Source: Sphaerolaimus hirsutus
Taxonomy: Eukaryota > Nematoda > Chromadorea > Monhysterida > Sphaerolaimidae
Assembly: GCA_964036195.1 (NCBI GenBank)
Contig: OZ038456.1
Location: 2,976,001-3,040,000 of the forward strand
Reading direction: 5' to 3'
Length of the DNA stretch: 64,000 nt
Shown here: positions 7,781 through 60,934 of the stretch, one piece after another
Position numbering within the stretch: the first letter of the stretch is position 1
Layout of the letters: every line of letters begins with the position of its first letter
The notes under the pieces: generated by a model
Told to the model about the DNA's origin: nothing
The model's database searches: none
Seen by the model: only the letters and a program-made list of their open reading frames with translations
Translations under genes and position numbers: made by a program

Positions 7781-7957
7781 ATCGGGACCGAGACTGGGGT
7801 ACCGGGACGTCCAGAACTGAGATATCGACTTAGATATACAGCGGCTTCTCGCGCTAGCGCTAATGCCAATAGCGCCATGGCATGGTGCCTATGAATGGCG
7901 GCAGCGCCATGGCGCTATTTCGACCCTGCGTATGCAACATTTTAAGGGGGTTCCATA

Positions 7958-8481
7958 CAGGGGTATCTTGAATTTTGACCCTCCGAGTGGTTGGATAGAT
8001 AGCAAATCGCTCCTCCGGAGGGATAGATAGCTGAAAAATTTTCTGGGGGGGGTTGGGGGGGGGTTTGGGGGGGGGTTGTGGTGGTTTGATATATAGGCTT
8101 TTTCGGGGCATAGAAGGAAGAAAAGGGAGAAAAATCGCTAAAAGTAGGTGTAAAATAGCTCAAAATGGGTATACAAGAGCATATAGTACTTAAAATAGCT
8201 GAAAATAGGCAGTTAGACGCATGAACCAGTGATTTTGGAGGTGAAAATCTATATATAGGTATGAAAAACAGCGATTTTGAGCGAAAATTGGGGTATAGTT
8301 TCTGAAAAATCGCTCCAGATAGGTAGATAGCTGAGCGATTTGGGGGGGGGTTTAGGGGGTAGTAGCCCAAAATTTTGCCTCCGGGATAGATAGATAGCTG
8401 AGCGGCCTCCGGGATAGATAGATAGCTGGGCGGTTTGGGGGGGGGTAACCCCCCCCCAACCCCCCCCATTCGAGACCCCTG
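7958..8481. mobile_element. hAT-type MITE, CAGGGGTATC...GAGACCCCTG, 8-bp TSD
   Basis: The flanks are GTTCCATA at 7950-7957 and at 8482-8489, a perfect 8-bp duplication. The interior has the GGGATAGATAGATAGCTG motif in both orientations and G-rich runs. It lies inside a CAGGGACGTATCCAGG element whose left end is at about 7070 and right end at about 8530. The latter's two flanks do not match, so that outer copy is chimeric or rearranged. Confidence 0.85.
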
Positions 8482-8531
8482 GTTCCATAAACAAACAGTC
8501 CCCCTGCTCAAAAATCCTGGATCGGCCCTGT

Positions 8532-12724: not shown

Positions 12725-13121
12725 CCGCTGTCTCTTTATCATCCTGTGTATTTTCACACCCACCCCCAACAACAGCCCAGCAAGCAACAGGAAGAGAACG
12801 GAATACGCCGCGCACACGGCGGCCGATTCCCCCCAGGTAGCAGTCCCAGACCCTGTAAAATTCCCTGTAAAATGTAAAATGTCATGCACAGTGTCAAATG
12901 TCATGTAAATATCCCTGCAAAATGGCAACCGAGTTGCCATTTTGCGGGGCATTTTACATGACATTTGACACTTTGCATGACATTTTACAGGGCATTTTAC
13001 ATGGTCAAGGACTGGCACCTGTTATCGTTGTAATTGCGCGGAAATCTGCTGTCTATCACTAGTGATTCTGTTTCTGGTGGGGAGAATGGCGGAATATCGC
13101 GGCTCACGCCGACTGAGGGGA
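12725..13121 (-). CDS. Two exons of an unidentified single-pass membrane protein
   Basis: Exon A (13019-13121) follows a good acceptor (TATCCATTTCAG) and encodes a Pro/Ser-rich segment ending SRFPRNYNDN. Exon B (12725-12836) encodes about 17 hydrophobic residues (VLFLLLAGLLLGVGV) followed by KIHRMIKRQR, which is a transmembrane helix with a basic stop-transfer tail. I infer the C-terminal end of a type I membrane protein. A hairpin element fills the intron exactly, with GTGCC at the donor. The only in-frame junction at its far end is CTGCTAC/CTGGGG, so the intron would be GT-AC. The exon pairing is therefore an inference. Exon B ends at a GTGGGT donor or reads on into a short tail. I do not recognise the family. 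Confidence 0.45.
12837..13018 (-). mobile_element. Introner-like hairpin element, 182 bp (intron of membrane protein)
   Basis: Read on the minus strand it begins GTGCCAGTCC immediately after AACAG and ends GGTCTGGGACTGCTAC. The halves pair through GCAAAGTGTCAAATGTCATG modules around GGCAACTCGGTTGCC. Unlike other copies its 3' end has TAC where they have CAG, so no AG is available at the exon edge. Confidence 0.75.
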
Positions 13122-19348: not shown

Positions 19349-22300
19349 ATGCGGCCCCCTTGGCCCATTGCACCCGCCAGCCCCTTGGCGCTGCTGTTGA
19401 CCACGCTGGGTCTGAGCTGGGTGGCGAGCGCGCAGAGGATTTGTCCAAAGGGGTGGCTGTATGTTAGCCAGAAGTGCTGGATGTATGAGAATAGATTGAA
19501 TACTTGGGATGGAGCTAGGAGGTCGGTTATTGTGGAATGTGTGCACTGTGATAAGAGTACCTATTTTATTTTATTTTTCGTTAAAACAAACATTTTTGAG
19601 AAGTTATCCAAGGGGGAGTTATTAGAGGGAGGAGTTATTTTTTCATCAGAATTTTCAGTAAAATGCGCGCTCTGAAATCAATGTTGGTGAAATGTTTAAC
19701 AAAATACCGCAAATCCTTGAATAAGACCCCCCCTCAAATAACTCGCCCCTGTTGGCGAGGTGAGGAAAAAAATAACTCTATACGTAAAGTCGGCAGACGT
19801 ATCGCCCTACAAACATTTGCGTCAATCTCTCCAGTGGAGAGTGCATGACGGCATTAGGTATTGTGACGCAATATTTTAACGATTGGAATAGATCGGGTCA
19901 CGTATGAAAACTTGGCCCTTGTCCGAGTTACCAGTTGTGTATTATACAAATGAGAGTGAAAACTGAAAGTTAGCTAAAAATCGTTAAAATTTGCTTCGCT
20001 TTGCCAATTTCCACCTTCATAATTGCTATTTATGTTTATATACATGGTTATATGGCTATTGTGAGCCTATTTTATTCATATTAATAGCAGATTTCGAAAT
20101 TTTGGCAGGCTGCCAAGTTCTCTTCTGTTGGAACGGAGCCAACGAATGAAAAATAAAATCAAAACAAAAACGGTAGTTTGAACAGTAAAACGGTAGTTTG
20201 AACGGTCAAATTCTTTACGAGCAACATTGAAAATGTAGATAACTAGGGCGTAGCACGCACGGACGCAGCCAAACGTCCATTTTTCTTTTAATATGATTTT
20301 CTTTTTCAATTTCTAGCGTCCGCGTGGGACACAAGTTTTGTTGTTCGCACTATTCACGAGCGAATTCTAACTCTCCGATTTTGTAGGGTGAAATGTCCGC
20401 CGACTTTACATAAGTACATTACTTTTTGAAAAGTATATGTAAATGTATTTACCGCTTACTCGCGTACGCGTATTTTTCGAGTAAATGTACGTACATTTTA
20501 ACAACTCTGCTCGCAACCTCACAAATCATCACTTCCCCCAGACGCTGCCGTTCACTGGGCGGCGACCTGGCGTCAGTCCACTCAGATGACTCGAACCGCT
20601 TCCTATACTCGTTGATCCAAAAGTTCGGCCTGTCGCCCGAGTCGCCCAGGTCGGGTGTGCTGCGCTACGACGCGTTCGCCAGTTTGCTAGCGCACGAGCC
20701 CACTTTGCTGCACTCGCTTAGATTGGGTGGGTTTGTGGGTTGAACCCTACACACGCTAGTTGACAACGACACCAAATGTCAACTGGTTCCCATCCCAATT
20801 TGAAGCTTGCCGGCGAGCTGACGAGCGACGTTCAAATGCAATAATGTAGGTGTCGTTGTCAACTAGTGTGTGATGGTGAAAAGGGAGGCGGGTTAGGAAG
20901 GATTCATCGGGAATATTGTATTCTCGCCTGTGGATAATTTTTTCGTCCGGATTTTGACTGAGGATGAGTATGAAGTGTTTGTATGAGTGTTTTTCAGTAT
21001 GGATACCTATTTATGTTCTGGGGGCGGTCCCAACCCCTGTACATAAAGTGTAAAGTGAGGTGTCAAATGTAAAGACAAATGCAAAGTAAAGTGTCAAATG
21101 TTAAGTCAAATGCAAATGTGAATTGTCATGCAAAGTGGCAAATGTAAAGTAAAGTGTCAAATGTAAAGTCAAATGCAAATGTCAATTGTCATGCAAAGTG
21201 TCAAATGTAAAGTAAAGTGGCATATGTGTTTCCAAATCTTTTTTTGTATCCAAATATAATGTTTTTGTATCCAAATCTTTTTTCGACATTGTTATTGTAT
21301 ACAAAAACATAAGAGTCGGATACAAAAAAAATAAATTTGGATACACAATTGACACTACTTAACATTTGATATTTGACTTTGCATTTGACTTAACATTTGA
21401 CTCTTTACTTTACTGACACTTTGCAAGACAATAGACATTTTACTGTTTCTAGGAGTGCCCCCAGTGTGACGAACAAAAGTAAATGCCAACTATTGACGCA
21501 AAGTGCCAAACTGTCGCAGCGCAAGCGGCATCGACGACCGATCTGTCGTGCTTCGCCATGCGGCCCAGCTCCGCGCTGCTTGGCTTCGCCGAGGCGGTCT
21601 TGGAAGTCTCCGCGGTGGACGACTGTCTCAAAGAGTGTCTCAACTCAGTTGGGACTTATCAATTCAAGTGCAGATCGGTCATGTTTTATACGTTAGTTAC
21701 GTTATATTTACACATAAGAAAGTTACGTGACGTGACAAAACGTGACAAAAATGGGTGTCTACCGCTTATTAGCTTTTTGTCACTTTTTAACTTTGCAAGT
21801 CATTATCTTACCCTTTACAAGTTATCACTTGACAAAGTGCGCAAACGACAATCGCCACATTTTATCACTGCCAAATAGCACAAAGCACCTGTAACCAATG
21901 CACAGAAACACTGAAGAGTGCATCCTGAACTCTGAGTCGCGCACTACGCAACCAGAATTCTACACTACGGATACATTTGGAGAGCCAGTGGACTACTACG
22001 ACAACAACTGCGGAGATACAAGTCAGTCAGATGCCAGTCACACACCCTGTAAAGTGTAAATTGTCATGCTAAGTGTCAAACGTCATGTAAGATGCCATGT
22101 TTGCCAGTTTTGTGCTAATTTCGATTTGCATCAACGCGAGCACGATGCAGTTTTATCGGGACGGCATCTCAGAGCCTGTAAAATGCCCTGCAAAATGTCA
22201 TGCAAAGTGTCAAAGGTCATGGACAATGCCATGTTTTTCATTTGGCAGCGCATTTACACGTCTTTTGACACTTTGCCTAACATTTGACATTTTACAGAGC

Positions 22301-25300
22301 ATTTTACATTGTATGGGTGTCCCCTGACGCACAATGGCTTAACGAGCTCATGTACTGTATCACCTCGAAATACCCCCATGGGAGTTTAATATTTCGCCAG
22401 CAAAATTTGAGGGGGGTTAATTCGAGGGGGGGTTTATCATTTCGTTAGAAATTTTCGTAAGCATCGTAGAAAATAGTAGGCATTTGTGTACCCAAAACAG
22501 GTAATAAATGTGTCCAAAAAGAATATATTTGGATATAAAAACGGTAGCTACACAAACTAGTCCATTTGTAGCTGTAATCTAAATTAGCAGTAATAAATAT
22601 GTACATTGCATACATAACGTATTTATTCCGGAGAATGGGGGCCATTTCGAGGGGGGTGTATTATTTCCCCAGCCCATTTTGAGGGGGGTTAATTCGAGGG
22701 GGGTTACAGACACATCACGATCCCTCATAACGACACAGACATTGAAATTCCCACGGTACCGTCGACGTGCTTCGACAGGTTCGAGGACATGGTGCTGGTG
22801 GGCTTCGCCGCCGGCGTTATAGAGCAGATTTCATTGGATGAATGTTTCGAGGCCTGTCTCAGGGAGAGCTTCTGCCGGTGAACTACTTTGACGGGGGGTT
22901 GCAGAAATGGGTGTTTTGAAGAAAATATGATTAAATTTTATGGCGGAACATCTCTCAAAAATAAATTATGATCGCAGATATGATAAAAATGAATATAAAT
23001 GTGATATTTTTTATATTGTCTTTTATTTAAAATAAAATATTTCCGGAAAAATCTGGAGAAAATACAAATAAATATGATAGTTAAAAATACTTTTTATAAA
23101 AAGATTATAGTTTAATATTTAACAATTATTTTATTATAAAAGATTTACCGTATTACCTCGAATTATCCCCCCCCCCCTTGAATTAACCCCCCCCCCTCGA
23201 AATACCCCCTAAAATTCGGCTGAGGAAATAATAACCCCCCCTCGAAATACCCCCTAAAATTGAGTGTAAAGGGAATGTACATGACAAATACCGCAGTTTG
23301 TGATCTGTACAATGCAGAACACACGTTAAAACTGATGATTGAATGACATTAGGGAAGGGTTGATGTGTATGTACAGTTATATATGCCTATACACACATAA
23401 ACCCCTGTTTACCTCGATCCGGATGGTTGTAAATTTTTAAAAAACGTTTTGTTCACGCCCCCCTGTAAAGTTTTCGGGAAAATTGACCCGACTCAAAAAA
23501 TAGCCCAAAGAGTTGTCTACATAATGTACGGATCGCCCCCCAATATAACACCGCGTGGGCCGTGTAAGCTGGCCACGCATTTTTTTATACCAAAATGCAG
23601 TGTTCACCTCGGTCCGGATGGTGGCTCCAAATCTTATATAGTCTGTTTTTCAAGGCCAGAATTTGGCCGAAACATAGAACAGTGTCCTGGCTTAGTGCCA
23701 AATGTCATTTCAACGGCTTATTTACAGGCAGAAATAAGATTACGATATTTTCAATTTGCACTGTTTTGTACTGCGCATCACGATCAGCTTTGATTGTGAT
23801 CATTTTATTGCCTCATCTTACATCTATTAACACAGAAAATGCTTCCACCAGAAAGAGAAATCTTTTGCGGTATTCTTAAAAACCTACTCCGCTTAAATAC
23901 ACCCTTCCCAAAAATGAGATATTGAGGGGTTAAATTTTAAAATGTTAGAACATTTCGTCCAGGGAAGGAAATTAGTAGTAAGTAAAATTTAGCAATGTTT
24001 TTTAAATTTCGCCCCTCAAATTCTCATGTTTGGGTGGGTGAATTTAACTGGTGTAGGTTTTAAAAATACCGCTAAAGATTTCTCTTTCTGGTGGAAGCAT
24101 TTTCTGTGTTAATAGATGTAAGATGAGGCGATAAAATAATCACAATCACAGCTGATCGTGATGCACAGTACAAAACAGTGCAAATTGAAAATATCCTAAT
24201 CTTATTTCTGCCTGTAAATAAGCCGTTGAAATGGCATTTGGCACTAAGCCAGGACACTGTTCTATGTTTCGGCCAAATTCTGGCCTTGAAAAACAGACTA
24301 TATAAGATTTGGAGCCACCATCCGGACCGAGGTAAACACTGCATTTTGGTATAAAAAAATGCGTGGCCCGCTTACACAGCCCACGCGGCGTTATATTGGG
24401 GGTGATCCGCACATCATGTAGACAACTGTTTGAGCTATTTTTTGAGTCGGGTCAATTTTCCCGAAAACTTTACAGGGGGGCGTGAACGAAACGTTTTTAA
24501 AAAATTCGCAACCATCCGGACCGAGGTAAACAAGGGTTTATACATCTATTTATGTAATTGTTTGATTTTTCTACGTCTGAATATGTTGAATTTCCGAAAA
24601 TTTCTGGCGAAATAATAGACGCCCCCTCGAATTATCCCCCTCAAATTTTGCTGGCGAAATAATAAACCCCCTGGGGGTATTTCGAGGTAATACGGTATTT
24701 GAAAATATAAATCTACCGCATTTTTTGCAACGCTTATTGCCCGACAATCCTTCGTCCCAATCCACATCCGACCACAATCACCAGGTGCCCCCCCTTCACA
24801 GCTCAATAATGTACTACGACAACCCGATAATCACGTGCATCCTCAACGAGGAGACCCGGTCCACCCAACCCGACCTTTTCGTGCGCGATCCCGACGCGGA
24901 TTACTACGACCGGAAAGACACGTGTGACGATGGGGGGGTCACGCCCACCCCCACGCCGACGCCCCCCGGCCCCGATGGACGTCAGTTTGGGGGGGGGGGT
25001 ATACGAGGGTCGTGTTGTTTTTGTGGGTGGCGACCATTTGGGGGCGCTAAAATAGCCAGTAAAATGAAAAAGAAATGTGTACCAGGCATTACGGACTAGA
25101 CAAATTTGCGTGACATTGTACAGGACCCCAGTGCGATTCCAATGAACTTTGAATGGAGCCTAACAGTGATTGAATCAACTGAAAATGGGACACTGCTCGA
25201 TAATAGCTTGGCAAAATTAAAACCCCGTAATTTATGTCACCGGGTGCACCTAGAAGTGGCATAAAACCCACATGGGAGGTTTCCGTTTATGCTGCGATTA

Positions 25301-28300
25301 CCGTATTTCTCCGTGTAAAGCACCCGGGTGCTATACAAAATCGAGACCCTTTCCAGCAACCTTTTTTTAAAACTTGTATAACACCCGGGTGTTAGGTCAA
25401 GGGGTGTTATACACGGAAACTAGACTAAACTAAAAAAGTGTGCTTTCGTTTTAAATTTATGATACACGTACCAACATATTTAGGCTTTTTCGGTTCCCAG
25501 CGTGCAGCAATCCAACGGAAAAATGCGTGCCGCGGAATTACAATGAGCGGCGCGCGCAACGCACAATATTTAAGCGATATTTTAGAAATTCAAATCAGTG
25601 ATCTTTTTGAAACCTAGCATAGCACCCCGGGGTGCTATGCAGCTGTATAACACCCTGGGTGTTGTGCACGGGGGGGTCCTTTACACGGAGAAATACGGTA
25701 CAGCTCGGACATAAAATTGACAGGGTGTAAAATTCATTTTGGGTGTAAAATAAATTACAGATGAATGGATAAAGATACGACAGGGTTATTTCAGTCAAAG
25801 AAAGCTTAGATGCAAAGCGTTTCTTGTGTCCAAAGCTCATGAGTTTATATTAATCGTACTGGGAGTTATGAATTTTAGCACAATTTTTCCAATTATGCGC
25901 TGTAGGTATAAGTTGTGTAAAATTAGGGTGTAAAATTAAGAAAATATGTGCCAAAATTCATAACTTCTAGTAAATTAAAATAAACTGATGAGCTTTGGAC
26001 ACAAGCAACATCTGCATGTGCGCTTTCTTTGACTGAAATTACAACGCCATATCTTATCCATTCACCTGTAATTGATTTTACGCCCAAAAATCAATTTTAT
26101 GCCTGGTCAATTATTTATTTCGATTGTCAATTAACAGCGTTATTTCTCAGCGCAAAAACATTTTTTGGTAAAAAACCTTTGGCAAATTTTTCCGGAATCG
26201 GGATAAAGGAAATTTAACCGGGACTAGAAAGTTTTCGGATTCGGGATCAGGGAACCGGTTTGGACCATATTGAGAAGGATGCCGACCCATATTCAAATCC
26301 TTTTTAAATACAAATACAGCGTGCCGCGAGATGGCCGACATAGTCTTCCTAATCGACGGGAGCGGGTCGATCGGCCCGCACGACTTCCAAAACATCAGGC
26401 AGTTCCTGTCGCTGGTGGTCGACTCGTTCGAGGTCGGCCCCACCATGAACCAAGTCGGCGTGGTCCAGTTCACAGAGAGTCCGTACACCGAGTTTCATAT
26501 GAATACGTACCAGACCAGGCAGCAAGTTAAAGGTTGGTTTTGTTGGAAGGATTGAAGGGAAAAGCAATTATGAAATTTGAATTTAAAAGAAATAAATCTG
26601 GGTAGATATGTACATCAAATTAAATACAATTGTACCAAAAGATGTGAGTAGAGTGTAACACTGAAGCATGAGTAAAATAAAACATTCGCAATTTTTAGAA
26701 TTTAGCCTAGGATGTAGATACAACATGTTAGTGAGGTGGTCATTATTTAAAAAAATACCTCTGCAGTTATCATTCCGGTAAACTAATATCCGTCCAAAAC
26801 TGATTTATCAGTTTTGGAAATACCGTATTTGCTTGAATAATTCCTCTGGGTAATCATTTTTTCGCCAGACTTTTTGATGGAGCTATTCAAAAAGGGGAAT
26901 TATTCAAGGGGAAATTATTATGTATGTAAATATGTTGTCAAAGTTTCCAAGCATGTTTCTATTAACCAAATTTCAAAATATACATAATAAATTTATCATA
27001 TGCCTTAAGGGGGGAAATTATTCAAGGGCAATTATTTTCTCCTCACTCATCTAACAGGGGAAATTATTCAAGTGGAGGAATTATTCAAGTGGGGGAATTA
27101 TTCAACCAAAAACAGTATCTATACGCCGTAAACCACTGCCCTCGCTCTCACAGAAGCAATCAACCGTATCGGCTGGCGCAACGGGCACACGGCCATCGGC
27201 CGCGCCCTGGACTACACCACCCAGCAGGAGCTCAACTTCGCGTCGGGCGACCGCGGCGTGGTGCCCAACGTGGTGCTCGTGCTCACCGACGGCATCAGCC
27301 AGGTGCCAGTCCCTGACTCTGTAGAATGTGCCCTGTAAAATGTCAAATGTCACGCAAAGTGTCAAACGTCATGTAAAGTGCCCACCGAAATGGCAAACAT
27401 ACGTTTACATGACTTTTGACGCTTTCCTTGACATTTTACATTTTACAGGGCTTTTACAGGGTCTGGGACTGCCCCCAGGACAGTCCCGCGCAGCCGGCGG
27501 ATACACTTAGAAGGACGCACGATGCTCTTACTTATGCTATTGGAGTTACTGAGGCGGTCAATGATGGGCAGTTGTTGGCTATTGCTGGCAGCCCGCAGAG
27601 GGTTTTCAAGGTGAGATTTATTAATGATTGATAAATTAATTAAGCTGATAAATGGGTGCTGGGCTAGGTAAAAATCACGATTATTCTACCGTTATTCATG
27701 ACACATTGTCTGTTACCTGAACTTTGTGACTCAAATGAGGTTATTATAAGTGCAAATTAAAATTTTAAATGGCCACCGGCCGTTCGCACTGGTGCTGCAT
27801 TACGAAACATTGGGGCCAAACATAAGAATTAGTGTCAACTAAATTCCACTAAATTTTGGTTAATTATGTGATTTCAACTTGACTATGTGATAAAGCATAG
27901 TTAGTTTTATATAGTGACACGTAATTTTCTTTGTTTCTGTTAAGTGATTCTAAAATATGTATGTTATTTAGTTGACATTCAGTTGACACAAATTTACGAT
28001 GTCAACTGGTGTCTCAACCCATTAAAGCTTTACCCCACATCCGACCACCCCCCCAGGTGCGCGACTTCACCAAACTAGACGAGCGGCTGCGCGACGCGCT
28101 GCGCAACGACATTTGCGGCCGCATGAACGGCATAGCCGGCTACGACTCGCGACGCCCCCTCGCTGATACACTACGCGGCAGGTCGCAGTCCCTAGCGCAG
28201 GTGCCAGTCCCGGACACGGTAAAATGTCAAGCGTCACGCAAAGTGTCAAAAGTCGTGTAAAATGCCCGGTAAAATGGCAAACACGTTTGCCATTTTACCG

Positions 28301-31300
28301 GGCATTTTACACGACTTTTGACACTTTGCGTGACACTTGACATTTTACAGGGTCTGGGACTGGCCCCAGGTAGTTGACAACAACGGCGTGTGGATAGGGT
28401 TGAGCGCGCAGCAGGGCCGGCTGAACTGGGCCGACGGTACCCCAGTTGACTATAGCAACTGGAAGTTTGGAGAGCCGAGATTGGCCGCTGGACAGTGTGT
28501 CATGTCGGAATTTGAGCCGGTGAGATATTTACATGAAAATGGACAATTCAGATATGTTCTAGATCTTGACCCTCGTTGGATACCCTCCTCAGGGATAGAT
28601 AGCTGACAAAACAAAATATTTGTTTTTATTGGGGGGGTTGGGGGGGGTTCAATATAATACAAAAATAGCTCAAAATAGGCAATAAAACACATGAACTGGT
28701 GATTTTGTAAGTGCGAAATCTATAAAAAGGTTTGAAAATCAGTGCTTTGAGGGTGAAATTCCTCAAAATTCGCGCCAGATAGCTGGGCGATTTCGGGTGG
28801 GCGGGGGGGGGGTTCAGGGGATAGTAGCCAAAAAGTTAGCCTCAGGGACAAATAGATAGGTGAGCGGCCTCCGAGATAGATAGCTGGGTGGTTGGAGGGG
28901 GGTGACAGTCTCCAAACCCCGCTCCTACCCGAGACAATCCCGTTGTGGCCCTTGGCAAGGACGTATCTAGAAGGGGGCGGGGGACCCCCCCCCCGTTCCC
29001 GGGTGAGACATGAAAAAGTTGGTGAAAATGCAACTTCTGGTATCACTTTTGAAGGTGTAATGTAAAAAAATTTTGCACGCAAGCGTGCATTTGGCCTTTC
29101 TGCAGATGTATTGTTGGTAAATCGGTCCCCGTACTCTCACTTCACTATTTTATACACTAATTGGTGTGTTTTTCGCTCTATGCGTATGTATATTTACATA
29201 CATATAAGCGATTTCTGGCGCCAACGCCAACGCCAATGACGCCATGGTGTTGCGCCTACAAATGGCGCCAGCGCCATCACGTCATTCCGCTACATGTAGG
29301 TAAAATTTTAGGGGGGGGGGGGGGCTGAGCCCCCCCGTTCGCCTGGCTCCGTAAACAAGCAGCCCCCCCCCCGCTCAAAAATTCTGGATACGTCCCTGGC
29401 CCTTGGCTTTTTCCCACCATGCACAACACGACCCAACCAAGTTCGACCGCGCAGTTGCAAAGATGGTCGACATCCCCGTGCAACGGCAGACACACGTGGG
29501 TGTGCAACACGCAGCCGACCACCACCTTCAAGAGCAGGTTGCTGCTCGCCAGGTACAGGGACGACGCCGCCGCCGCCAGGAAGAAATATGTCAAGGTGGG
29601 TACGGGTTCGAATTCGGCATCGGGATTGTGTTTTTTTTTGCAGTTTTGGGGATCGGGATTGTATTTTGAAGATTTCGAGATCGGGATTTTGGACTAGGGT
29701 TGGGACGATATGACTTTTCGATATCGATATTCGATATTTTTTTCTGAAACTCGATATTCGATATCGATACGATATGGACCCTCGATATCGATATTCGATA
29801 TTCGATATAAAAAAATGCTCGATATTCGATATCGATATTTCGATATTTTCGATATTTCGATATTTTGCTTTTGGTATAGCAGGGCATATCTCATTTGGCA
29901 TATTGCATTTCCATTTGATCACAAACCCAACTGATCATCTCTACTGAAAAGTAGATGATACAAATTTAAATGGCACACAATGATCAAAATGAGAACATGA
30001 TTTAAAAATGTGACAGATGTGGTACGGAAAAGGTGCCAGCCACATTTTTAGGTGCCATGCCATGGTGCCATTGATGTTTCCATGGTGTAAGTAGCTATTA
30101 AACATACATATACTCTTATGTGAACATCTTAGAGAGCATTTGGACAAGATTTGATGCTGCCGCAAGTGCTGAAACAAAAATACCTGTCATGTGAGAACAA
30201 AGTGCGCGCTTGCGCGCAAAATTTGTTAAAATTGCTTATGAAATCGCCTTCTAATAGTGCCATTCCTGGCTTATTTGAAGTCAGGCCCAGGGAGTATAGA
30301 ATATCGAAAATATCGAAAAAATGGTCGATATTCGATATCGATATTCGATATTTTTTCAAAATTTTCGATATCGATATTCGATATGAAAAAATAGTCGATA
30401 TCCGATATTCGATACGATATATCGTCCCAACCCTATTTTGGACAATGGTGCTCAAAAGGACACAAAATGCCAGAGAAGTGGCATAAAATGCTTCACTGTG
30501 CTTACATCAAAAAAGTCTTTTTGAATTTTTTTCTTCAGAGATTGGAATTAAGGAAACGGTTTCGGGATCGGGTTTTAAAATGATTTGCGATCGGGATTGT
30601 TTTTTTTAGATTTCGGGATCGGGACTGCAAAATTCGGGAATTTTTCGGGATCGGGAACCCGTTTGAACCCTAAAAGTAGGTCGAATAATGATCAGACACT
30701 GAAAAATCATGCACTATTTTTTTACTTCACGCGCGCACGCAGCCAGCCATGTCCGAGAATGCGAAGCGCCTGTGGCGGCGGCACCACAAAAGCGCCTACA
30801 GCCGCATGCTGACCAAGCTCAATGCCCAGCAGAGGTCGCTGCTCAGAAACAGAAACGCGCAGGTGGGCTATAAGAAATGGTGCAGTTGTGAACAATTACA
30901 ACAATGGCCACTCCCAGACGTTGTAAAATGTCAACTGTCATGCAAAGTGTCAAAAGTCGAGTGAAATGTCAAATTTCCTTTTTACTGGATATTTCATGGT
31001 CCAAGTCGTGTCATTGACATATTGCACATTTGACACCTTGCATGCACTTGTCACTTGACATTTTGCAGTGTTTGTCAGTGGCACCAGGCAGGAATATCTC
31101 ACAACTCAACATTAGACCCGATAACCACCCGTGAAACACAGACGCCGACACAACGGCACCTAGCCGCGCCAAACACAACGCCAACGCCAAGGCGCCTGGC
31201 GCCAGCGCCAACGTCGCGCCATACAATTCACTCAGACCATTTTACGCGCATCAAAAACCCATTCGTTGTCGGTGGCCAGCTGGTGCCGAAATCTATCAAT

Positions 31301-31708
31301 GATAATAATAGTCAAATATCTGTGGTGCGCGTTTTTGGGAGACAAAGAGAAGCGAGAAATTACGTTCCTATGAGAACGGTCACCAGTGGCAGTTTGTATG
31401 GGCGCGCCAGGTGCCAGTCCCAGACCCTGTAAAAAGCCCTGTAAAATGTCAAATGTCATGCAAAGTGTCAAAAGTCGTGTAAAATGCCCTGCAAAATGGC
31501 AACTCGGTTGCCATTTTGCAGGGCATTTTACATGACTTTTGACACTTTGCATGACATTTGAAATTTTACAGGGCTTTTTACAGGGTCTGGGAGTGCCCCC
31601 AGGAGTAATAATAATAGACAAAGTGATAGCAAGCAGTATTTGAATGCAGCCTCTTTATACAGAAGGTTTTATGGTTCACCTGGTTGGCCCTACACTCATA
31701 GATTGTAA
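19349..31708 (+). CDS. Secreted C-type lectin / PAN-PAN / VWA protein, 15 exons
   Basis: Exons: 19349-19521, 20542-20726, 21520-21691, 21906-22021, 22739-22877, 24802-24980, 26320-26532, 27154-27302, 27479-27610, 28057-28200, 28370-28519, 29455-29595, 30743-30862, 31088-31410, 31603-31708. All junctions are GT-AG and all phases agree, giving 813 residues. Residues 1-28 are a signal peptide (SPLALLLTTLGLSWVASA). Residues 32-105 are the N-terminal half of a C-type lectin fold (CPKGWLYVSQKCW, CRSLGGDLASVHS). Two PAN modules follow at about 127-213 and 225-310 (DCLKECLNS with TEECILNSESRTTQP; DECFEACLRE with TCILNEETRSTQP). A VWA domain at 322-500 has intact MIDAS parts (FLIDGSGSIG, GHTAIG, VLTDGIS). 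The C-terminal lectin half at 535-600 has VWIGL, DYSNWKFGEP, WSTSPC and WVC. A basic, Ser/Asn-rich tail ends the protein. I infer an extracellular matrix or recognition protein. Exon 3 start and the exon 4/5 join are the least certain. Confidence 0.87.
20745..20880. mobile_element. Short MITE, CACACGCTAGTTGAC...GTCAACTAGTGTGTG
   Basis: CTACACACGCTAGTTGACAA is mirrored by TTGTCAACTAGTGTGTGATG. It lies in intron 2 of the lectin/PAN/VWA gene, 19 bases after the donor. The same family occurs at 39110, 42205, 47228 and 48212. Confidence 0.75.
21012..21460 (+). mobile_element. Introner-like hairpin element, enlarged copy, in intron 2
   Basis: It starts TCTGGGGGCGGTCCCAACCC and ends TTTCTAGGAGTGCCCCCAG. 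The arms are GTGTCAAATGTAAAGTCAAATG modules. The centre (about 21225-21345) is a different palindrome of GTATCCAAATATAATG and CATAAGAGTCGGATACAAA units that also occurs at 43330, 49040 and 52490 in other copies. The acceptor actually used, judged by phase, lies about 60 bp downstream. Confidence 0.7.
22025..22327 (+). mobile_element. Introner-like hairpin element at start of intron 4
   Basis: GATGCCAGTCACACACCCTG begins a few bases after the donor. The element ends TTTACATTGTATGGGTGTCC. GCAAAGTGTCAAAGGTCATG and its complement form the arms. A partial CCGTATT-type MITE (about 22350-22715) follows it in the same intron. Confidence 0.65.
23148..24695. mobile_element. CCGTATTACC MITE carrying a 1.14-kb inverted-repeat element
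   Basis: TA/CCGTATTACCTCGAATTAT opens and CGAGGTAATACGG/TA closes it. It lies in intron 5. Its outer parts are nearly the same as the 396-bp MITE at 58603-58998. The difference is an internal insertion at 23400-24538. Confidence 0.85.
23400..24538. mobile_element. Long-arm palindrome (two ~500-bp arms), TA duplication
   Basis: The left arm begins AACCCCTGTTTACCTCGATC and the right arm ends GACCGAGGTAAACAAGGGTT. The arms pair over roughly 500 bp each, with a centre of about 120 bp. TA flanks both ends, and the sister MITE at 58603-58998 shows the site without it (CACATATACATCTATG). The arms are open in frame but code for nothing that I recognise. Confidence 0.8.
25301..25698. mobile_element. 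MITE, CCGTATTTCTCCGTGTAAAG termini, TA duplication
   Basis: TA/CCGTATTTCTCCGTG on the left, CACGGAGAAATACGG/TA on the right. The inside contains ACCCGGGTG and CACCCCGGGGTG palindromes. It lies in intron 6. The following 25720-26310 has an inverted pair around GACTGAAATTAC/TTTCAGTCAAAG and a decayed GGGATCGGG remnant at 26180-26270. Confidence 0.75.
26823..27115. mobile_element. MITE, CCGTATTTGCTTGAATAATT termini
   Basis: TA/CCGTATTTGCTTGAATAATTC on the left. The right end GAATTATTCAACCAAAAACAG has decayed. It occupies most of intron 7 next to the acceptor of exon 8. Confidence 0.7.
27303..27478 (+). mobile_element. Introner-like element forming a complete intron (176 bp)
   Basis: The element begins GTGCCAGTCCCTGACTCTG directly after exon 8 (CAG) and ends GGTCTGGGACTGCCCCCAG directly before exon 9. 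Its termini are the splice sites. The intron interrupts the VWA domain between TDGISQ and the following helix in phase 0. The arms pair through GCAAAGTGTCAAACGTCATG modules. Confidence 0.92.
27479..28056 (+). other. Exon 9 and the TAGTTGACA-bearing intron 9
   Basis: 27611-28056 is intron 9. At about 27835-28015 it holds AGTGTCAACTAAATTCC and, inverted, GTTGACACAAATTTACGATG, a decayed copy of the TAGTTGACA MITE. The acceptor is a C-rich CCCCCCCAG. Confidence 0.55.
28201..28369 (+). mobile_element. Introner-like element forming a complete intron (169 bp)
   Basis: GTGCCAGTCCCGGACACG is the donor end, and GGTCTGGGACTGGCCCCAG the acceptor end. The two halves are almost perfectly complementary around GGCAAACACGTTTGCC, so the transcript would fold into one long stem. 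It separates the VWA end from the C-terminal lectin half in phase 0. Confidence 0.92.
28556..28947. mobile_element. Remnant of the TAGATAGCTG hAT-type element
   Basis: GGATAGATAGCTGACAAAAC and AGATAGATAGCTGGGTGG motifs with G-runs match the element at 7958-8481. The left end reads TTCTAGATCTTGACCCTCG and the right GCTCCTACCCGAGAC. It lies in intron 11. Confidence 0.6.
28956..29398. mobile_element. hAT-type MITE, CAAGGACGTAT...ATACGTCCCTG, 8-bp TSD
   Basis: The flanks GCCCTTGG at 28948-28955 and 29399-29406 are identical. Inside are a GCACGCAAGCGTGC palindrome near 29075 and a GGCGCCAACGCC block. It lies in intron 11, 57 bp before exon 12. Confidence 0.88.
29605..30672. mobile_element. GGATCGGG hAT-type MITE, split by another hAT element
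   Basis: The outer copy has (C)GGGATCGGGATT repeats on both sides and ends CCCGTTTGAACCCTA, the terminus of the intact copy at 41470-41964. The left end is decayed. The segment 29695-30435 is a later insertion. Confidence 0.65.
29695..30435. mobile_element. hAT-type MITE with ATCGATATTCG interior, 8-bp TSD
   Basis: TAGGGTTGGGACGATAT opens it and ATATCGTCCCAACCCTA closes it. TTTTGGAC flanks both ends (29687-29694, 30436-30443). Both subterminal zones are runs of TATCGATATTCGATA. The middle contains AGTGCGCGCTTGCGCGCAAA. It lies in intron 12. Confidence 0.9.
30906..31087 (+). mobile_element. Introner-like element, reverse orientation, supplying an acceptor
   Basis: It begins CCACTCCCAGACGTTG and ends GTCAGTGGCACCAG, whose AG is the acceptor of exon 14. 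Here the terminus that usually gives the GT donor is inverted and gives the AG instead. The donor of this intron (30863) lies 43 bp upstream, outside the element. Confidence 0.8.
31411..31602 (+). mobile_element. Introner-like element forming the complete last intron (192 bp)
   Basis: It starts GTGCCAGTCCCAGACCC at the end of exon 14 and ends GGTCTGGGAGTGCCCCCAG before exon 15. The phase-2 junction reads in frame to the TAA at 31706-31708. The arms meet at GGCAACTCGGTTGCC. Confidence 0.92.
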
Positions 31709-32640: not shown

Positions 32641-33273
32641 TTTTCAATTCACTTTGTCAGGATCGGTTCAGGATTGGCCCAACAGAAAGTTGATTTGGGT
32701 AATGCAGTGACGTCATTTATATGCACACTATTATCTCACATATTTACATACTTGTATTAAAAACATAGTTGACTCACTAGATAACATTTTAGAATACTGT
32801 CACGAATCTTCAAAAGTTACATCTAATTATTATTATTAGCTTCAAAAGTTATATTTACATTAACTCGATCCATAATGGTTGCATACCTACAGTTTCATAT
32901 TTATTCTGTAATTTAATGTGTGATTATTCGGTAATTTTGTGTAATTATGAATTCAAACACGATCAGCCTAGTCTATACAGAAAGCCAGTCAAAAAATACC
33001 CACACAGACTTCAAACGTATAAAATCGACTTAGAGCGACCAGGGGGCAGTCCCAAACTCTGAAGGTGTCAAATGTCGTGTAAAATGTCAATCAAAACAAA
33101 ATGATTTTATAACTGAACATTGCATGACAATTGACACTTTACTTTACATTTGTCCTGACAATTGACATTTTGCATGACATTTGACACTTTACTTTACAGT
33201 ATCAGGGATTGGCACCAGACGACAAACATACTCGCAACTAAAACTCCAGCCCAAAAACTACACACAAATCAAC
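32641..33273. other. Intergenic stretch with one introner-like element
   Basis: 33042-33216 is an introner-like hairpin (CAGGGGGCAGTCCCAAACTC to GGGATTGGCACCAG) that is outside any gene model I can support. It lies just past the stop of the small membrane protein. The rest is AT-rich. Confidence 0.6.
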
Positions 33274-34063
33274 TCAGTTATGTTTCGAAGGTGGACCTTT
33301 ATACTCGTGCCCCTCGTGCGGCTTGGGCACATACTCATAATCATTGCCCAAAATACGCCAATTGTACCAATTTCTGAGTCTGCGATAAGCCCAAAGCTCC
33401 GCCCTTTCCTCATCTTTGACAAGTGTTGGATTTCGTTGCAACATCAGCCAGGATATGTGGATGCCTGGATGGGGGGGGGGGTAGGTTGTGTGTAAAATCT
33501 GGGTGCAATTCTTAGACCATGTAAAATGTAGAATGTCGTGGAAGGTGTCAAAGGTCGTGTAAAGTGCCCTGCGAAATGGCAAACGAGTTTGCCATTTTAC
33601 ATGACTTTTCACACTTTCCTGATACTTCACATTTTACAGGGTCCGGGAGTACCCCCTGCCGCAATGCTGGTTTACGTGTACCTACACTGGAAAATTAGCG
33701 CCCACTTTTTCACACAGAGAAAAGTGAGTGAAATGCATTGACATTGATTATGTACCTGGATGTCCGGTTTCTTTGAGCTCTCCAGATTTCAAAAAAATCT
33801 CCAAATTTTTTTGAATGTCAGTTTGCTATATTGAGCATAAAGTGCCATGATTATATGAATCTAAGTGACAACCCCCTCCCTCAAAATACAAGATACTCAT
33901 CAGTGTAATAAACATTTGGCACTGGTCCAAATCGAATAAACTCCAAAAAGCGCACCGACGAGCATGCTGGAGCAGATGGCAAAGTCCTTTAGCATTTTCT
34001 TCGCGCGGGCGGACACCATGGCGTCGTGTATGGGCTGACCGATCGGGAAATGAAGGGGAAATG
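33274..34063 (-). CDS. Small unidentified membrane protein, 5' end not found
   Basis: Two exons are supported: 33923-34063 and 33274-33464, joined in phase 1 by a GT-AG intron that contains an introner-like hairpin (33503-33655). The first exon encodes FPIGQPIHDAMVSARAKKML and a hydrophobic stretch (FAICSSMLVGALFGVYSIW), one likely transmembrane helix. The second encodes a charged, aromatic C-terminus (DEERAELWAYRRLRNWYNW, then EGHEYKGPPSKHN and a stop). About 110 residues are visible. One helix plus a W/Y/R-rich tail would suit a small organelle inner-membrane subunit, but I do not recognise a family and do not assign a function. An initiator could be the M in HDAM or lie in a further upstream exon. 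The gene is divergent from the ZDHHC16-like gene, with about 660 bp between them. Confidence 0.5.
33503..33655 (-). mobile_element. Introner-like hairpin in the small membrane-protein gene
   Basis: On the minus strand it reads CAGGGGGTACTCCCGGACCC to GGTCTAAGAATTGCACCCAG. The arms meet at GGCAAACTCGTTTGCC. It is interior to the intron; the acceptor used lies about 40 bp beyond. Confidence 0.75.
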
Positions 34064-34723: not shown

Positions 34724-37700
34724 ATGAGTGTCTCAAATAAGTTTAGCGATGCTATTTTCGATGGATTACGTCACATCATGTGGAAAATTTCACCCCGCTT
34801 GTGCGTGGTCATTGGATCGCTTTTCTATAACACCCATTTGAATTGGAGATATGTTCTGGATACGGCTTTCGGGCCGGTTTTTTGGTTTGTCGACAATTAT
34901 GTGCGCTATTTTGGGCCGGTCGGTTTTACATTTTCGAAAATAATTTGGTAAATTGATGTTTAAAAAAAACTTTAAAAAAATAAAAAACCGCAGGTGTTCA
35001 TCACATTCTTATTCAGTTTGATGGGACTTGTTGTTTCCGTGCTCTACATTATCATTATACCATATGAAGTTTTGACAAAATCGTGGTTTGAAATAGTGTT
35101 TTATATAGTCACTGGCCATTACCTACTCATTAACACTCTGTTTAATTACTCAATGGCATTCAAAGTTGGGCCGGGCTATCCGCCAAAGGTATGCTGGCGC
35201 TGATTTGGCAAGTTGTCAAGTGAATTGGTAAGTTATAAGAAGTGTTGTAAGTGGCGCGTCAAATTGGTGACAAGTAGTGGCGACAAACTGATTGGTCACA
35301 CGTGGGTTCAGTGACAAATTGAATGTCTACTCGACTGTTAGGGCAGTGCACTATTCCGCATGTAAACCCATCCGCATGTTGACCCGAAACGCATTTAATT
35401 ATACCTGGCATGTTGAAAATAGGTAATAAAACACATGTAATATAATAGTTATTTTGAATGTGAAAATCTATAAGAAGTATGAAAATTAGGGAATTTTGGT
35501 GAAAATTAGGGTAACATTGCTCAAAAGCGTTCCAGATAGCTAGATAGCTAGGCAATTTGCGGCTGGGGGGGGTGTTCAGGGGAAAGTAGCCAAAAAAATT
35601 GCGCCAGGGATAGATAGATAGCTGGGCGGTTTGGGGTGGTGTTACCCTTTCTTACCCCTGCAGGCATAATGTGTCTGTAATAGGTCTACATGCGGAATGG
35701 GCTTTGAAGCGGAATGGGCCCTAGCCGACTGTTAGTGGGTAGACTGTTAGTCTACCTGACTTGTCGCTTTAAATCTTCTGTACAGTGTATAACTTCTCTT
35801 GCCACTTGACAACTTGACAAAATGAGCCCCTTTTAATCATCTCTCTCTAATTTTAGTGTTTGAAAATGCCAAAATTACACCAAAACCCTTGCAGACCGGT
35901 CTACTCACTCGCTCTGTAGGCATGTGCAAACGGTGCGTTCAGCCCAAGCCGGCCAGGGCGCACCACTGCTCCGTGTGCAACACATGCGTGCTCATGATGG
36001 ACCACCATTGCCGTGAGTGTTGACTAGGGTTCAAACGTTATATCGTATCGAATATCGAATATCGGATATCGACCGTTTTTTAATATCGAATATCGATATC
36101 GAAAATTTTGAAAAAATATCAAATATCGAATATCGATATCGAAAATTTTGAAAAAATATCGAATATCGATATCGAATATCGACCATTTTTTCGATATATC
36201 GAACCTGTATTGTGTCCCCAAATGTACTTTTCATTTTCATTTTGAGATGTTTATGGTTGCTCTGATGTGCTTATAGTATTGTATTTGATGAGTAAAAGTA
36301 CAGTTTTTTTAATGTCATTGTTGTTGGAGTGCTAAATTTGAAGCCAGAAAACGCTGATATACTTTTTTGCAACATGCCCTTAAGCAATTAGGTTATAAGG
36401 ATGAACTGTAATATCTACCAATTGTCATTTGTCTGATACACATTGATTCATCATGTTGTTTTTCTACATGTTCTACTTTTGAGTGATGTAAAGCTTGTTA
36501 AAATCACTTGTACCATTCACATTTCAGTAAAGAGATGATTAAACATGTGTGCAACCACATGAAAATACAATATGCCACTTGAAATATGCCTTGTTATACC
36601 AAAAGCATATCACAATATCGAATATCGAAAATATCGAATATCGACCATTTTTCAATATCGAATATCGAATATCGATATCGAGGTTCCATATCGTATCGAT
36701 ATCGAATATCGAGTTTCAGAAAAAAATATCGAATATCGAATATCGATATCGAAAATTTTGAAAAAATATCGAATATCGAATATCGATATCGAAAAGTCAT
36801 ATCGTTTGAACCCTAGTGTTGACTGTTTTTTTTGGTGTTTGAGGTGCACATGTTTAGACTTAGACAAGTTTGGTTGAGTTTGGGTTATGTGAAACAAAGT
36901 AAAGTGAACTTAGGCAAAGTTAAACACCATTTTTAAAACGGTAATTAGGTACCTTTTTCATATTGTGATCGGCTGCAATTGTAAAAATCGCAGTGAATAG
37001 TTTTCAAATGCGAAAAATAAAATTTCTCTCAATTTCTTGTACACTTCTGCTGTCGTGAACTGGAAACCAGCGTGCGCGGTAACAGTGGGTAATTTGTCAT
37101 ATTTATATGTTTATCTTTATTTTCAGCTTGGCTGAACAAGTGCGTGGGTCATCGAAACCACCGTTATTTTTTCATGACAATGGTTTTTATGTGTGCCGGC
37201 TGCTTTTTGATCTGTGTGGGCATGTGGCCGTGTCTCAATGACCATTACTGGACCTCGGTTTGTTTTTTATCCAGGGCTGGAAAAAATAATTTTTTCAAAC
37301 GCCTTTTTTTAGAAAAATCAATCTTGAAAATTTATTTAAAAAAACAAAAATCAGATTAAAAAAAAATATCAGTTGAAAAAATCAAGTGCCATCTCTATTG
37401 TTATCCATGCAAAATTATATCTTTGTCAACTTTCCTCGCTTTTCAGACCATCGAGTTGGCGCCGTGGTGCAAACGCATGATGGGTATTTTATTTTATGCA
37501 GAATACCTTTGCCAAATTGAGGAAATCGATGGCGTTATAGTGGGTTGTGAAATGTGTTTTGTCATTTTTACACTATTTTTATAAAAAAACTTACTTAGAA
37601 CTTCTCAGGTGTCTCAATCGGGTAGTTCCGCGCACAATGCAATTGTTTTAGTCTTTTTAATCGCCATGGCCGTCTTTGTTGGTCTGTGTAATTCTGCTTC

Positions 37701-40706: not shown

Positions 40707-43700
40707 TCAATCACCACTATCATTCCAATCGAAGTATCCATTTATAGCCAATTGCAAATATCTCCTATCAGTGCAATTCTGCAACCTGACGAAATGTTTC
40801 TGAGCCAACTCTCGTTTCCTGGTGCTTTTTCCCGGCTCGTAAATGTTGATTTTGCTAGCTTGCTTGGCTAACTGATCTTGGAAAGTGGACAGGGCCATTA
40901 GGAATGTGCCGTCGCTTTTTTGTGGTATTTTGCCCTGTTAGAGTAGGGGGTCAGTTTTGGGCGCTATTTAGACTTCAAGTTCGAATGTAAAAAAATCACA
41001 GCGGGTCGGAAGGACTCCCAAGTAAATAGCAGTGGACAGTCACGGACCCTGTAAAGTATAAAGTAAAATGTCAAACGTCGTGTAAAATGTCAATCGAAAC
41101 CAAAAAAATAAAAGAATTTATTACTGAATTTGCGTGACAATTGCCACTTTGCATAACATTTTGCATGACATTTGACACTTTACACTTTACAGGGTGTGTG
41201 ATTGGCACCTGGTCGAGTTTGTTAATATGGAAAATAGATCGTGCTTGGGGGGTTGCAGACGTCGGGATTTTGCAAGGGTCCGCTATAAAATATCACACAC
41301 TTAGAAAAAGGCATTGACGGTAAAATTAGCGGAAAAATTATACAACTGTCTTATGAATGGTAACCCCCCGTGGTAAACCCTAGTAAATTAAGAGGTGGGC
41401 TTGTTCGTGTAGGCAATGATAAATACCTAACATGTCAGATGTGTAGGTGGTTCGCCACGGTGGCCCCATTAGGGTTCAAACGGGATTGACTTCTCGGGAT
41501 CGGGATCGGGATTCACTTTTTGAGATTTCGGGATCGGGATTGGGGTTTCGGGATCGGGATTGGTATTTTGAGATTTCGGGATTGGCCGGGATTGGGGTCA
41601 CCGGATCGGGATCGGGATTGGCATTTTTTCGGGATCGGGATTGGGGTCTAGGGATAGAGATTTTCGTCACTGTTCTGGCATTCACAGTTGTTCATAAAGG
41701 TCTCAAAACACTGCTGGATGCCAGAAAAGTGACATAAAATGGACGCTGGGCGTTTGTGTTCACATTTTTGCACGCAAAAATGTCATTTTTTTCACTTTTT
41801 TATAATTTCCACTATTTTATCCGGGATCGAGATACCGGACTTGGGAGATTCTCGGGATCGGGATCGGGATTGGTATTTTTGTATTTCGGGATCGGGATCG
41901 GGACTGCTAAATCCCGAAATTTCACGGGATCCGGGATCGGGATCTGGATCCCGTTTGAACCCTAGGCCCCATGTAAATGTTTCCACGCACCTGATAGCCG
42001 AGCCTTCTCAACGTGGCCCCGATGGCTCCCTTGGCCCCGCCCACTTCTATATCATTGTTGCTGTTTTTCAAGTCGGCCATCAGCGTGTCCAAGTAGTGCA
42101 GCGCCAGTGTGTTGTGCTGCTGCGCGCCCAGCATGCTGCCGCTGTTGTAGTGCACTCTGCGCCCGTTTGAATGAGCTTGTGCGTGATTGGCTTGTGGGTG
42201 CGGGCCCACCCCCACACACTAGTTGACATCGCAAAAAATGTCAACTGAATAATTAAAAAAAATTTAAGCAACGTACATAACAGAAACAATGAAAATAAAA
42301 TGTGACGATTTAAAATTAACTACCGTATTTACTCGAATAATTCCCCCGGGGAATTATTTTTTCCTCAGACATTTTTGAGGGGGGAACTTTTCAAGGGGTT
42401 AATTATTGAAGTGGGGGAATTACTATTTCCTCAAAATTTTCAGGTATATTTTCATCACACTACATACACATGTACATACAATTTCCATTAGTAATGCACA
42501 TTCCATTGCATCTTTGCACACCGGATGTGCTGCATCTGTATTCGATGTATCAGTCCAGGCACAGCTTTTTTGCTTGGTTTCATTTCATCGATTGTTTGGA
42601 AAAAATATGTACATTATCTATAATTTCATTGGGGGGGATTATTCAAGTGGGGGAATTATTTTTTCCTCACTCGTCTAGCAGGGGGGAATTATTCGAGTAA
42701 ATACGGTATGCTCCATCACATCGGAAAGTTGAAATCGCACAATTAACCAAAATTGAGTAGAATTTAGTTGACACGAATTTCGTTGTCAACTAGTGTGCGT
42801 GGGCCCTATGTGCTCTGCGAGAACCTTTTGTGGTTCCTGGCAACTGCGCTGCGCTGGCGAGGGATCACCGAGCTGACAAACTTGGTGTAGAATGTTTCCA
42901 ACGCCTTGTAGTCGGGCTCGGTGCACACGATCAAGGGCGTCGTGTCGTCCTGAATTCGGTTTGACGCTGGTCACTTTTTTTCAGTGACAAACAAGTAGCC
43001 GCCTTCAAATTGCCATCCTAAGTTTAGTTAGTTGTAGGGTGCCAAAAAAGATCTTCCCGCCATATGTGTGACAAAAATTCATTTTCCCAATCCGAACCTC
43101 GGGATGGTTTGAATAAGGTAGTGAACGAATGGCGCCATTTGTGGGCGCGAAAGGGGGCTGCGCGCTTATTTTCGCTGGCGCTTTTCCATCACTAGAACAA
43201 TGGCCTTGGCCTTGGGGGGGGGGCAGTCCCAGACCCTGTGAAGTGCCATGTGTCATGTGAAAGACCTTGTAAAATGTAAAATGTCATGTAAAAGACTCTG
43301 TCAATTGTCATGTGTATCTACTTTATTTTATGTTTTCGTATCCAAGACTAAAGTTTGGGCATACGACATGGATACTACACACGAGGGTCTTTTACATGAC
43401 ACATGACATTCTACAGGGTCTTTTACATGCAGGTATTTGTAGATTTGGACCCCCGTGGGGGTTCATATAGATATCAAATCGCTCCTCCGGAGGGATAGAT
43501 AGCTGAAAATTTTTCTGGGGGGGGGTCGCGGGGGTTCAATATATAGGCATAGAAGGGAGGAAAAGAAGAAAAATCGCTAAAAGTAGGTGAAAAATGGGTA
43601 TATAAGGACATATAGTACCAGGGGTATCTTGAATTTTGACCCTCTGAGTGGTTGGATAGATAGCAAATCACTCCTCCGGAGGGATAGATAGCTGAAAAAT

Positions 43701-60879: not shown

Positions 60880-60934
60880 CTGAAAAAATACAAGGGGTGT
60901 TGCGTATTTTGAGCAAGCCGTTTGGGTAGGGGGC

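Follow-up and report, generated by a model that had tools for sequence, protein, structure and literature searches.

Within the PHIS elements of the PIF/Harbinger superfamily the NuwaI group is described as making a 5′-CWG-3′ target duplication and as having terminal inverted repeats (TIRs) which usually start with GGG (PMC4482050). According to the excerpted sections of this survey NuwaI was found only in animals (16 animal genomes), and the autonomous consensus sequences are about 4.5 kb long on average, carry transposase and Myb/SANT open reading frames (ORFs) and end in TIRs of 12–61 bp (PMC4482050). In introners, on the other side, the copies within genes make up whole introns; these transposons have TIRs, target duplications or both (excerpts of Gozashti et al. 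2022, PMC9860276). The introner of Chrysochromulina carries the 5′ splice site within the element and co-opts the 3′ site; it makes 4-bp duplications and has no TIRs (PMC9860276, in the excerpts). The same excerpts state that introners turned up in no more than two animal groups when 835 genomes of animals and land plants were surveyed (PMC9860276).

Here we analyze a family of short hairpin elements found in a 64-kb stretch of DNA (the window). We consider it probable (about 0.7) that the family is a non-autonomous hairpin DNA transposon (MITE) of the PHIS/Harbinger NuwaI group which makes introns on landing in exons; that the copies are spliced and that these introns were gained recently is what we infer from the sequence. 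The window has a GC content of ~41% and is eukaryotic, probably nuclear DNA of an animal, as suggested by the combination of VWA and C-type lectin domains in one gene and by a protease whose nearest relative among the PDB chains is cathepsin F. The coordinates of all features are collected in Table 1.

Table 1. Copies of the hairpin family, their flanks and the genes in which they lie (positions in the window)
Feature	Position	Strand	Remarks
VWA exons and first lectin exons of the VWA/C-type-lectin gene	26274–28521	+	interrupted by copies 1 and 2
Left target copy CAG, copy 1	27300–27302	+	final 3 bases of the upstream exon
MITE copy 1, 173 bp	27303–27475	+	predicted intron with the right target copy, phase 0, inside the VWA domain
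Right target copy CAG, copy 1	27476–27478	+	predicted 3′ splice site
MITE copy 2, 166 bp	28201–28366	+	predicted intron between VWA-end and C-type lectin exons, phase 0
CAG flanks, copy 2	28198–28200 and 28367–28369	+	
MITE copy 3, 189 bp	31411–31599	+	predicted intron, phase 2, in what is probably the final coding part of the gene, frame only
CAG flanks, copy 3	31408–31410 and 31600–31602	+	
Cathepsin F-like gene region (I29 propeptide, Peptidase_C1)	55893–59270	-	copy 4 in an exon, copy 56842 in an intron
MITE copy 4	56105–56286	-	in cathepsin F-like exon, sense, phase 2, splice sites uncertain
Target of copy 4	CTG 56287–56289, CCG 56102–56104	-	
MITE copy	56842–57029	+	in pre-existing cathepsin intron, antisense to the gene, CAG on both sides
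MITE copy	12837–13018	-	in probable membrane-protein exon, left CAG, right CTG
Diverged MITE copy	30907–31084	-	in a probable VWA-lectin intron, antisense
MITE copy	33043–33215	-	CTG on both sides, without recognised coding context
MITE copy	33502–33655	+	CTG on both sides, without recognised coding context
MITE copy	60930–61089	-	CTG and CTA, coding context uncertain
Diverged MITE copy	41033–41208	-	GTGCC terminus at the left of the minus strand, CAG and CTG
Longer related copy	62969–63239	+	CTG on both sides
Longer related copy	48963–49258	+	CAG on both sides, upstream of the TTL-domain exon of a minus-strand gene
Longer related copy	21021–21461	+	GGGGC at both ends, without GT donor, CTG and CAG
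Copy cut by the window end	63852–64000	-	right end CCCC, then CTG

Size, copy number and fold of the family

A first profile of the family was built from the copies at 27303, 28201 and 31411 and found further relatives in the window. With the profile made from 12 aligned copies there are 22 merged loci at E<1e-3, which together cover 4,287 bp, i.e., ~7% of the window. Two of these loci are the halves of one longer copy (21021–21461) and one (22032–22320) fuses two copies; the loci also include longer variants with other cores (21021, 48963, 52339), one copy truncated at the window border and a small number of fragments. The number of about 20 related copies, which had been given in a first-pass annotation, is a fair estimate after merging and splitting of the loci, and all copy counts refer to this one window of 64 kb. 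The exact sequence GTGCCAGTCC occurs four times in the window, in copies 1–3 and at 13009–13018 of the minus strand; with one mismatch allowed there are 10 matches compared to 2.0 expected, and this number was reached in none of 100 shuffles.

The short hairpin copies are 154–189 bp long, their longer relatives up to ~440 bp, and the inverted repeat runs over the whole length of the element. The best copies are near-perfect hairpins with arms of 83 bp and 94% identity in copy 2 and of 97 bp and 95% identity in copy 3, and the arm identity is only 77 to 78% in copies 1 and 4. The hairpin character which the annotation had assigned to the family is borne out by RNA folding with 10-base flanks: copy 2 reaches −143.8 kcal/mol compared to −52.1 ± 4.6 for shuffled sequences (z −20), and copy 1 reaches −96.1 kcal/mol (z −12). 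Since other copies are found within ordinary introns or away from any recognised exon, the family is a general MITE and not a dedicated intron. Rfam at gathering thresholds and ARAGORN each gave 0 matches in the window, and searches of viral_contigs and genome_contigs with the exact terminus patterns were both without a match.

Other repetitive sequences were seen in the window as well. The 388-codon ORF at 4624–5787 (+) has a weak match to reverse transcriptase (RVT_1, E 0.0015, below the Pfam cut-off) and is presumably a fragment of a BEL/Pao-type retroelement. Two long open frames at 7945–8568 (-) and 43477–44106 (-) encode nearly the same peptide and thus represent an interspersed repeat.

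Target site and ends of the element

We defined the ends by an 11-base terminus, GTGCCAGTCCC, on one side and its partner, GGGGCAGTCCC (read inwards), on the other side. Compared to this 11-mer the copy at 48963 lacks one base on the right and the copy at 33502 has an additional base on the left, and the boundaries of 62969 and 30907 were shifted by 1 to 3 bases from the call of the script to the aligned 11-mer. The GTGCC end is found on the opposite side in 41033 and 30907.

The same CWG triplet in the same direction flanks both ends in 8 of the 14 copies with two readable ends, this being CAG for 27303, 28201, 31411, 56842 and 48963 and CTG for 33043, 33502 and 62969. Three copies (12837, 41033 and 21021) have a mixture of CAG and CTG, and in the remaining three one flank base is changed (56105, CTG and CCG; 60930, CTG and CTA; 30907, CAA and CAG on the plus strand). 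For comparison, CWG starts at 2.6% of the window positions. Seven of the 22 loci with an end missing or unalignable were omitted from this count; in two of them with readable ends the right triplet is not CWG (CCC at 43220, TTT at 47660). These flanks point to insertion at CWG, mostly with a 3-bp duplication. The original target appears to have contained one CWG, because removal of the element together with one triplet leads to gap-free protein alignments (VWA repeats 1–3 of collagen VI; cathepsin F, 1m6d).

One end reads GTG in 10 of 12 aligned copies, diverged ones included, and the opposite end reads GGG in 8 of 12. In the copy at 28201 this T versus G is the single difference between the two termini over the first 11 bases, and the termini of most other copies differ at one further position as well. 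The family seems to have had the GT donor for a long time, as GTG is also present in the diverged copies.

The same data bear on the possibility that the introns are made by a transposon of another superfamily, for which CWG would be a preference or a part of the terminus and which would be moved by another transposase or by an RNA route. This explanation overlaps with the one we prefer except for the last clause of the latter, the putative NuwaI transposase of PHIS/Harbinger, and we regard it as the better of the alternatives, if a rather unlikely one. It would fit the three copies whose two flanks are CAG and CTG, the arrangement expected of an inverted repeat, and also the fact that no transposase was seen among the window ORFs tested: neither a DDE transposase nor a Myb/SANT domain is present in the 25 of 549 window ORFs (at least 50 aa) that were searched against Pfam. 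The whole-length inverted repeats, the same-direction CWG flanks of most two-ended copies, the copies without coding context and the empty sites, which need exactly one CWG for a gap-free alignment to the best relatives, speak instead for DNA transposition with a 3-bp duplication.

Copies 1–3 in a VWA/C-type-lectin gene

Copies 1–3 lie in one gene, and by the predicted splice sites they fill three of its introns exactly. Each of them starts with GTGCCAGTCC directly after a CAG of the exon and ends with CCCCAG at the next exon, and in 3 of 3 cases, all with CAG on both sides, joining at CAG/GTGCC..CCCCAG/ (the slash denotes the splice site) changes the predicted mRNA by +0 nt. When the copies are read unspliced, a stop is found inside the element in each of copies 1 to 4. 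Our reading of the sequence confirmed the intervals 27303–27478, 28201–28369 and 31411–31602 and the start terminus reported in the first-pass annotation; the common end CTGSCCCCAG proposed there fits copies 1 and 2, but copy 3 ends with GTGCCCCCAG. The in-frame joins claimed for all three copies hold, for copy 1 with a VWA domain across the junction, for copy 2 with supported exons and for copy 3 by frame only. Likewise the intron phases 0, 0 and 2 are right, but the lack of phase bias deduced from them has no meaning with n=3.

For copy 1, when the exons 27157–27302 and 27479–27611 are joined exactly at the predicted sites, the protein matches VWA with 54.0 bits, whereas four alternative in-frame joins give 45.1, 40.8, 45.7 and 47.4 bits, i.e., are worse by 7 to 13 bits; the upstream exon alone has 27.4 bits and the downstream exon alone has no match. 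Together with the exon at 26274, which is connected via AAAG/GTTGG and CACAG/AAGC, and with the following exon, the whole VWA domain is encoded and is restored across the junction of copy 1 (Pfam E 1.7e-44). At this junction the repeats 1–3 of collagen VI align without gap and the second domain of the mussel protein PTMP1 (4cn8) aligns with a gap of 2 residues.

For copy 2 the first 9 residues of the upstream exon still belong to the VWA match, and the later part of the C-type lectin domain starts with the downstream exon. In the exact join, ...RSQSLAQ/VVDNNGVWIGLS..., both frames are kept, and together with the next lectin exon this join yields 39.9 bits (E 7.8e-10) for the lectin domain, of which only 3 residues are matched upstream of the junction. 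The position of the junction is hardly fixed by homology, because the exact join (22.6 bits) and the alternatives (21.0, 20.7 and 20.9 bits) differ by less than 2 bits; the downstream exon alone has 22.0 bits. The join across copy 3 is in frame and runs to a stop codon, with no domain match seen on either side, and it is the pattern of ends and flanks alone which suggests that this copy is an intron. Downstream of 28521, 11 residues that can be read ahead of the next lectin exon are probably intronic.

Within an intron of this gene, at 29700–30430, there are two stretches of ATCGATATTCGATAT-type repeats ~400 bases apart, and the translated frames suggest the same type of repeat again near 36600–36900.

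Copies in a cathepsin F-like gene

A fourth copy was found in the sense direction in a gene with a Peptidase_C1 domain (Pfam E 3.1e-63). Coding sequence reaches both ends of this copy, here at a CTG target, and its empty site encodes a protein without a gap in the alignment to cathepsin F (1m6d, E 3.2e-71); three further proteases, the next ones listed, are 4 residues shorter there. By these alignments the junction of copy 1 and the site of copy 4 are both loops of variable length. The empty-site protein scores 89.2 bits, but GT-AG splicing cannot produce it. Of the GT-AG joins one reaches 88.1 bits (−15 nt, with a downstream exonic AG and five codons lost) and another, which uses an AG nine bases before the end of the element, 86.3 bits (+9 nt); GC-AG joins score 82.8 and 79.3 bits.

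The copy at 56842 had also been considered as an exon insertion. This was ruled out by the next exon, which reveals a pre-existing intron with the donor AA/GTTTGTCGAT ahead of the copy, so that the copy lies ~10 bases inside the intron.

This copy demonstrates that the family does enter existing introns, and we therefore have to ask whether copies 1–3 as well landed in or replaced older introns and now simply have their edges at the old splice sites, no intron having been created. CAG/G is the usual context of old intron positions, and hence the position alone cannot separate the two readings. However, copies 1 to 3 retain no remnant of an older intron on either side, and their splice sites fall on the duplicated CAG, which would need three exact replacements; copy 4, at its CTG target, is bordered by coding sequence at either end. 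We consider this explanation improbable and retain the creation of introns by the transposon as the preferred reading.

Further copies

Intron formation is supported for a minority of the copies, and several lie outside any recognised exon. The copy at 12837–13018 splits an apparent juxtamembrane and transmembrane sequence; none of the GT-AG pairs examined restores the frame here, which only a GC donor keeps, and this copy therefore counts against a universal rule of intron making. The copy at 30907–31084 lies between two stretches which were read as exons of the VWA-lectin gene, without a domain match.

The copies at 47660–47866 and 48963–49258 adjoin exons of the tubulin-tyrosine-ligase family at 47440–48931 (-) (Pfam TTL, 1.3e-35 and 1.2e-15). 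Directly after the copy 60930–61089 there is a frame at 60687–60974 (-) without a match in Pfam, which ends in an acidic Asn/Ser/Gly-rich part and a hydrophobic tail, like the last exon of a GPI-anchored protein.

An ORF-span test for exonic insertion was dropped in favor of homology, as 5 to 12% of the controls were as long as the spans around copies 1–3 (0.05 to 0.16 when copy 4 and 12837 are included; 3,040 control readings at CWG positions, both strands). When 5.5% of the window is taken as coding (19 exon intervals recognised by homology or reading, with approximate ends), 4 of 14 two-ended copies in coding sequence give p 0.006 and 4 of 22 loci 0.03, and with an assumed coding fraction of 10–15% p ranges from 0.04 to 0.43. 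Since p depends on the assumed coding fraction, we do not claim an enrichment in coding sequence. Copies 1 to 4 are in sense orientation and 56842 and, by reading only, 30907 are antisense, numbers which are too small for a test.

That the copies are ordinary disabling MITE insertions in dead genes or a dead haplotype, with CAG/GT...CAG as a by-product of the CWG target, would account for the stops met on read-through of copies 1 to 4, for the apparently exonic and unrepaired copy 12837 and for the end CCCCAG, which a CAG target yields for free, but it appears quite improbable to us given that the exons beside copies 1, 2 and 4 are open and match domains, at best as strongly as quoted above for VWA and Peptidase_C1, that these domains persist even though the diverged arms of copies 1 and 4 suggest age, and that copies 1 to 4 are all sense, too few as they are for a test.

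A proposed model for the formation of introns

We propose that introns arise when the element inserts at a CAG on the coding strand with its GTGCC end upstream; the sequence then reads exon...CAG/GTGCC...(hairpin)...CCCCAG/exon. The predicted donor GT is positions 1–2 of the terminal repeat and is supplied by the element, and the CAG which ends the exon and the CAG of the predicted acceptor are the two copies of the target and not part of the element. A change of G to T at position 2 of the terminus would have created the donor; the direction of this change is suggested by the opposite terminus, which reads GGG where the donor end reads GTG. Joining at the duplicated CAG restores the presumed reading frame before insertion with no residue gained or lost. 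If the spliceosome uses these sites, TTTTAC ~23 nt before the acceptor could serve as branch point, and the branch point and the C-rich tract would then also come from the element. An ACAG just past TTTTAC is presumably too close to be used. The stem may bring donor and acceptor together, and a PHIS/Harbinger transposase of the NuwaI group would mobilise the element. Two features speak against the mechanism: GTGCCA makes a weak donor beyond its first three bases, and in the hairpin the donor and acceptor regions are paired with each other.

Insertion at CTG would not provide an acceptor CAG. In this case an AG nine bases before the end might be used (GGNAG/TGCCCC plus the target copy), which would add three codons in frame; such an internal AG is present in copy 4 (GGTAG/TGCCCC) and in 60930 (GGGAG/TGCCCC).

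Taken further, the family could be an undescribed animal introner derived from a CWG-targeting Harbinger element (NuwaI), in which the duplicated proto-splice CAG serves as exon end and acceptor, a single G-to-T change made the donor and copies at CTG are spliced at the internal AG. We put this extended proposal forward tentatively; if it is true, the family, with about 20 copies in 64 kb, may be generating new introns in large numbers in an animal lineage alive today. An abundant introner family in an animal would be valuable, because introners were reported in only two animal groups in the survey of 2022. The proposal also offers a simple and testable route to proto-splice sites, with a CWG-duplicating transposase placing CAG at either end of its cargo. 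It further predicts which insertions do no harm (CAG, sense), which ones make the protein three residues longer (CTG, sense) and which are harmful, so that a single genome would suffice to measure selection on new introns.

Comparison with known transposons and introners

The annotation had taken the elements for introner-like DNA transposons whose exonic copies are whole introns, and this view is supported by our analysis for the exonic copies, although it does not extend to most of the others (56842 lies in a pre-existing intron and 30907 probably in an intron too, and none of the GT-AG pairs examined restores the frame in 12837). Two further statements have to be given up. The element does not supply both splice sites, since the acceptor CAG is the right target copy and only the donor GT belongs to the element, and the family is not an unrecognisable one, since its CWG duplication and the GGG seen at one terminus fit NuwaI of PHIS/Harbinger. 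As for the usual signs of introners, the similarity between copies reaches both predicted splice boundaries in 3 of 3 cases (copies 1–3), of which one has a domain across the junction, one has domains on either side and one the frame only; the positions are three in one gene plus copy 4 in the cathepsin F-like gene, where splicing is uncertain.

CWG-targeting Harbinger elements occur in zebrafish. With NuwaI the present family shares the 3-bp CWG duplication, and one of its termini reads GGG in 8 of 12 aligned copies; the proposed assignment to this group is a match in ends and target only. In contrast to NuwaI, the copies described here are short hairpins, inverted over their whole length, with arms which exceed 61 bp, and one terminus reads GTG. 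MITE-type introners of algae were reportedly described by Huff and colleagues in Nature in 2016 as short DNA transposons which build splice sites with the help of their target duplication; these are said to differ from the present family in the length and sequence of the duplications and in having algal hosts. A further survey of introners was reportedly published by Gozashti and colleagues in 2025, and the present family may be in it.

In the excerpts of PMC4482050 there is no mention of intron formation by NuwaI, Harbinger does not occur in the excerpted main text of PMC9860276, and among the papers listed introners and Harbinger occur together in one fungal paper, which mentions each of them once. 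Among the listed papers that name NuwaI, two (PMC4482050 and PMC11304231) deal with transposons.

The introner of Chrysochromulina is comparable in that the splice sites of the present family, too, are divided between the element and the target duplication, and it is different from the present family with its 3-bp CWG duplication and its full-length inverted repeats. As introners which share the splice sites with the target duplication have already been described (PMC9860276), we regard the elements as a new family of a known introner kind, which is notable for its probable animal host and for a target that is itself the proto-splice site.
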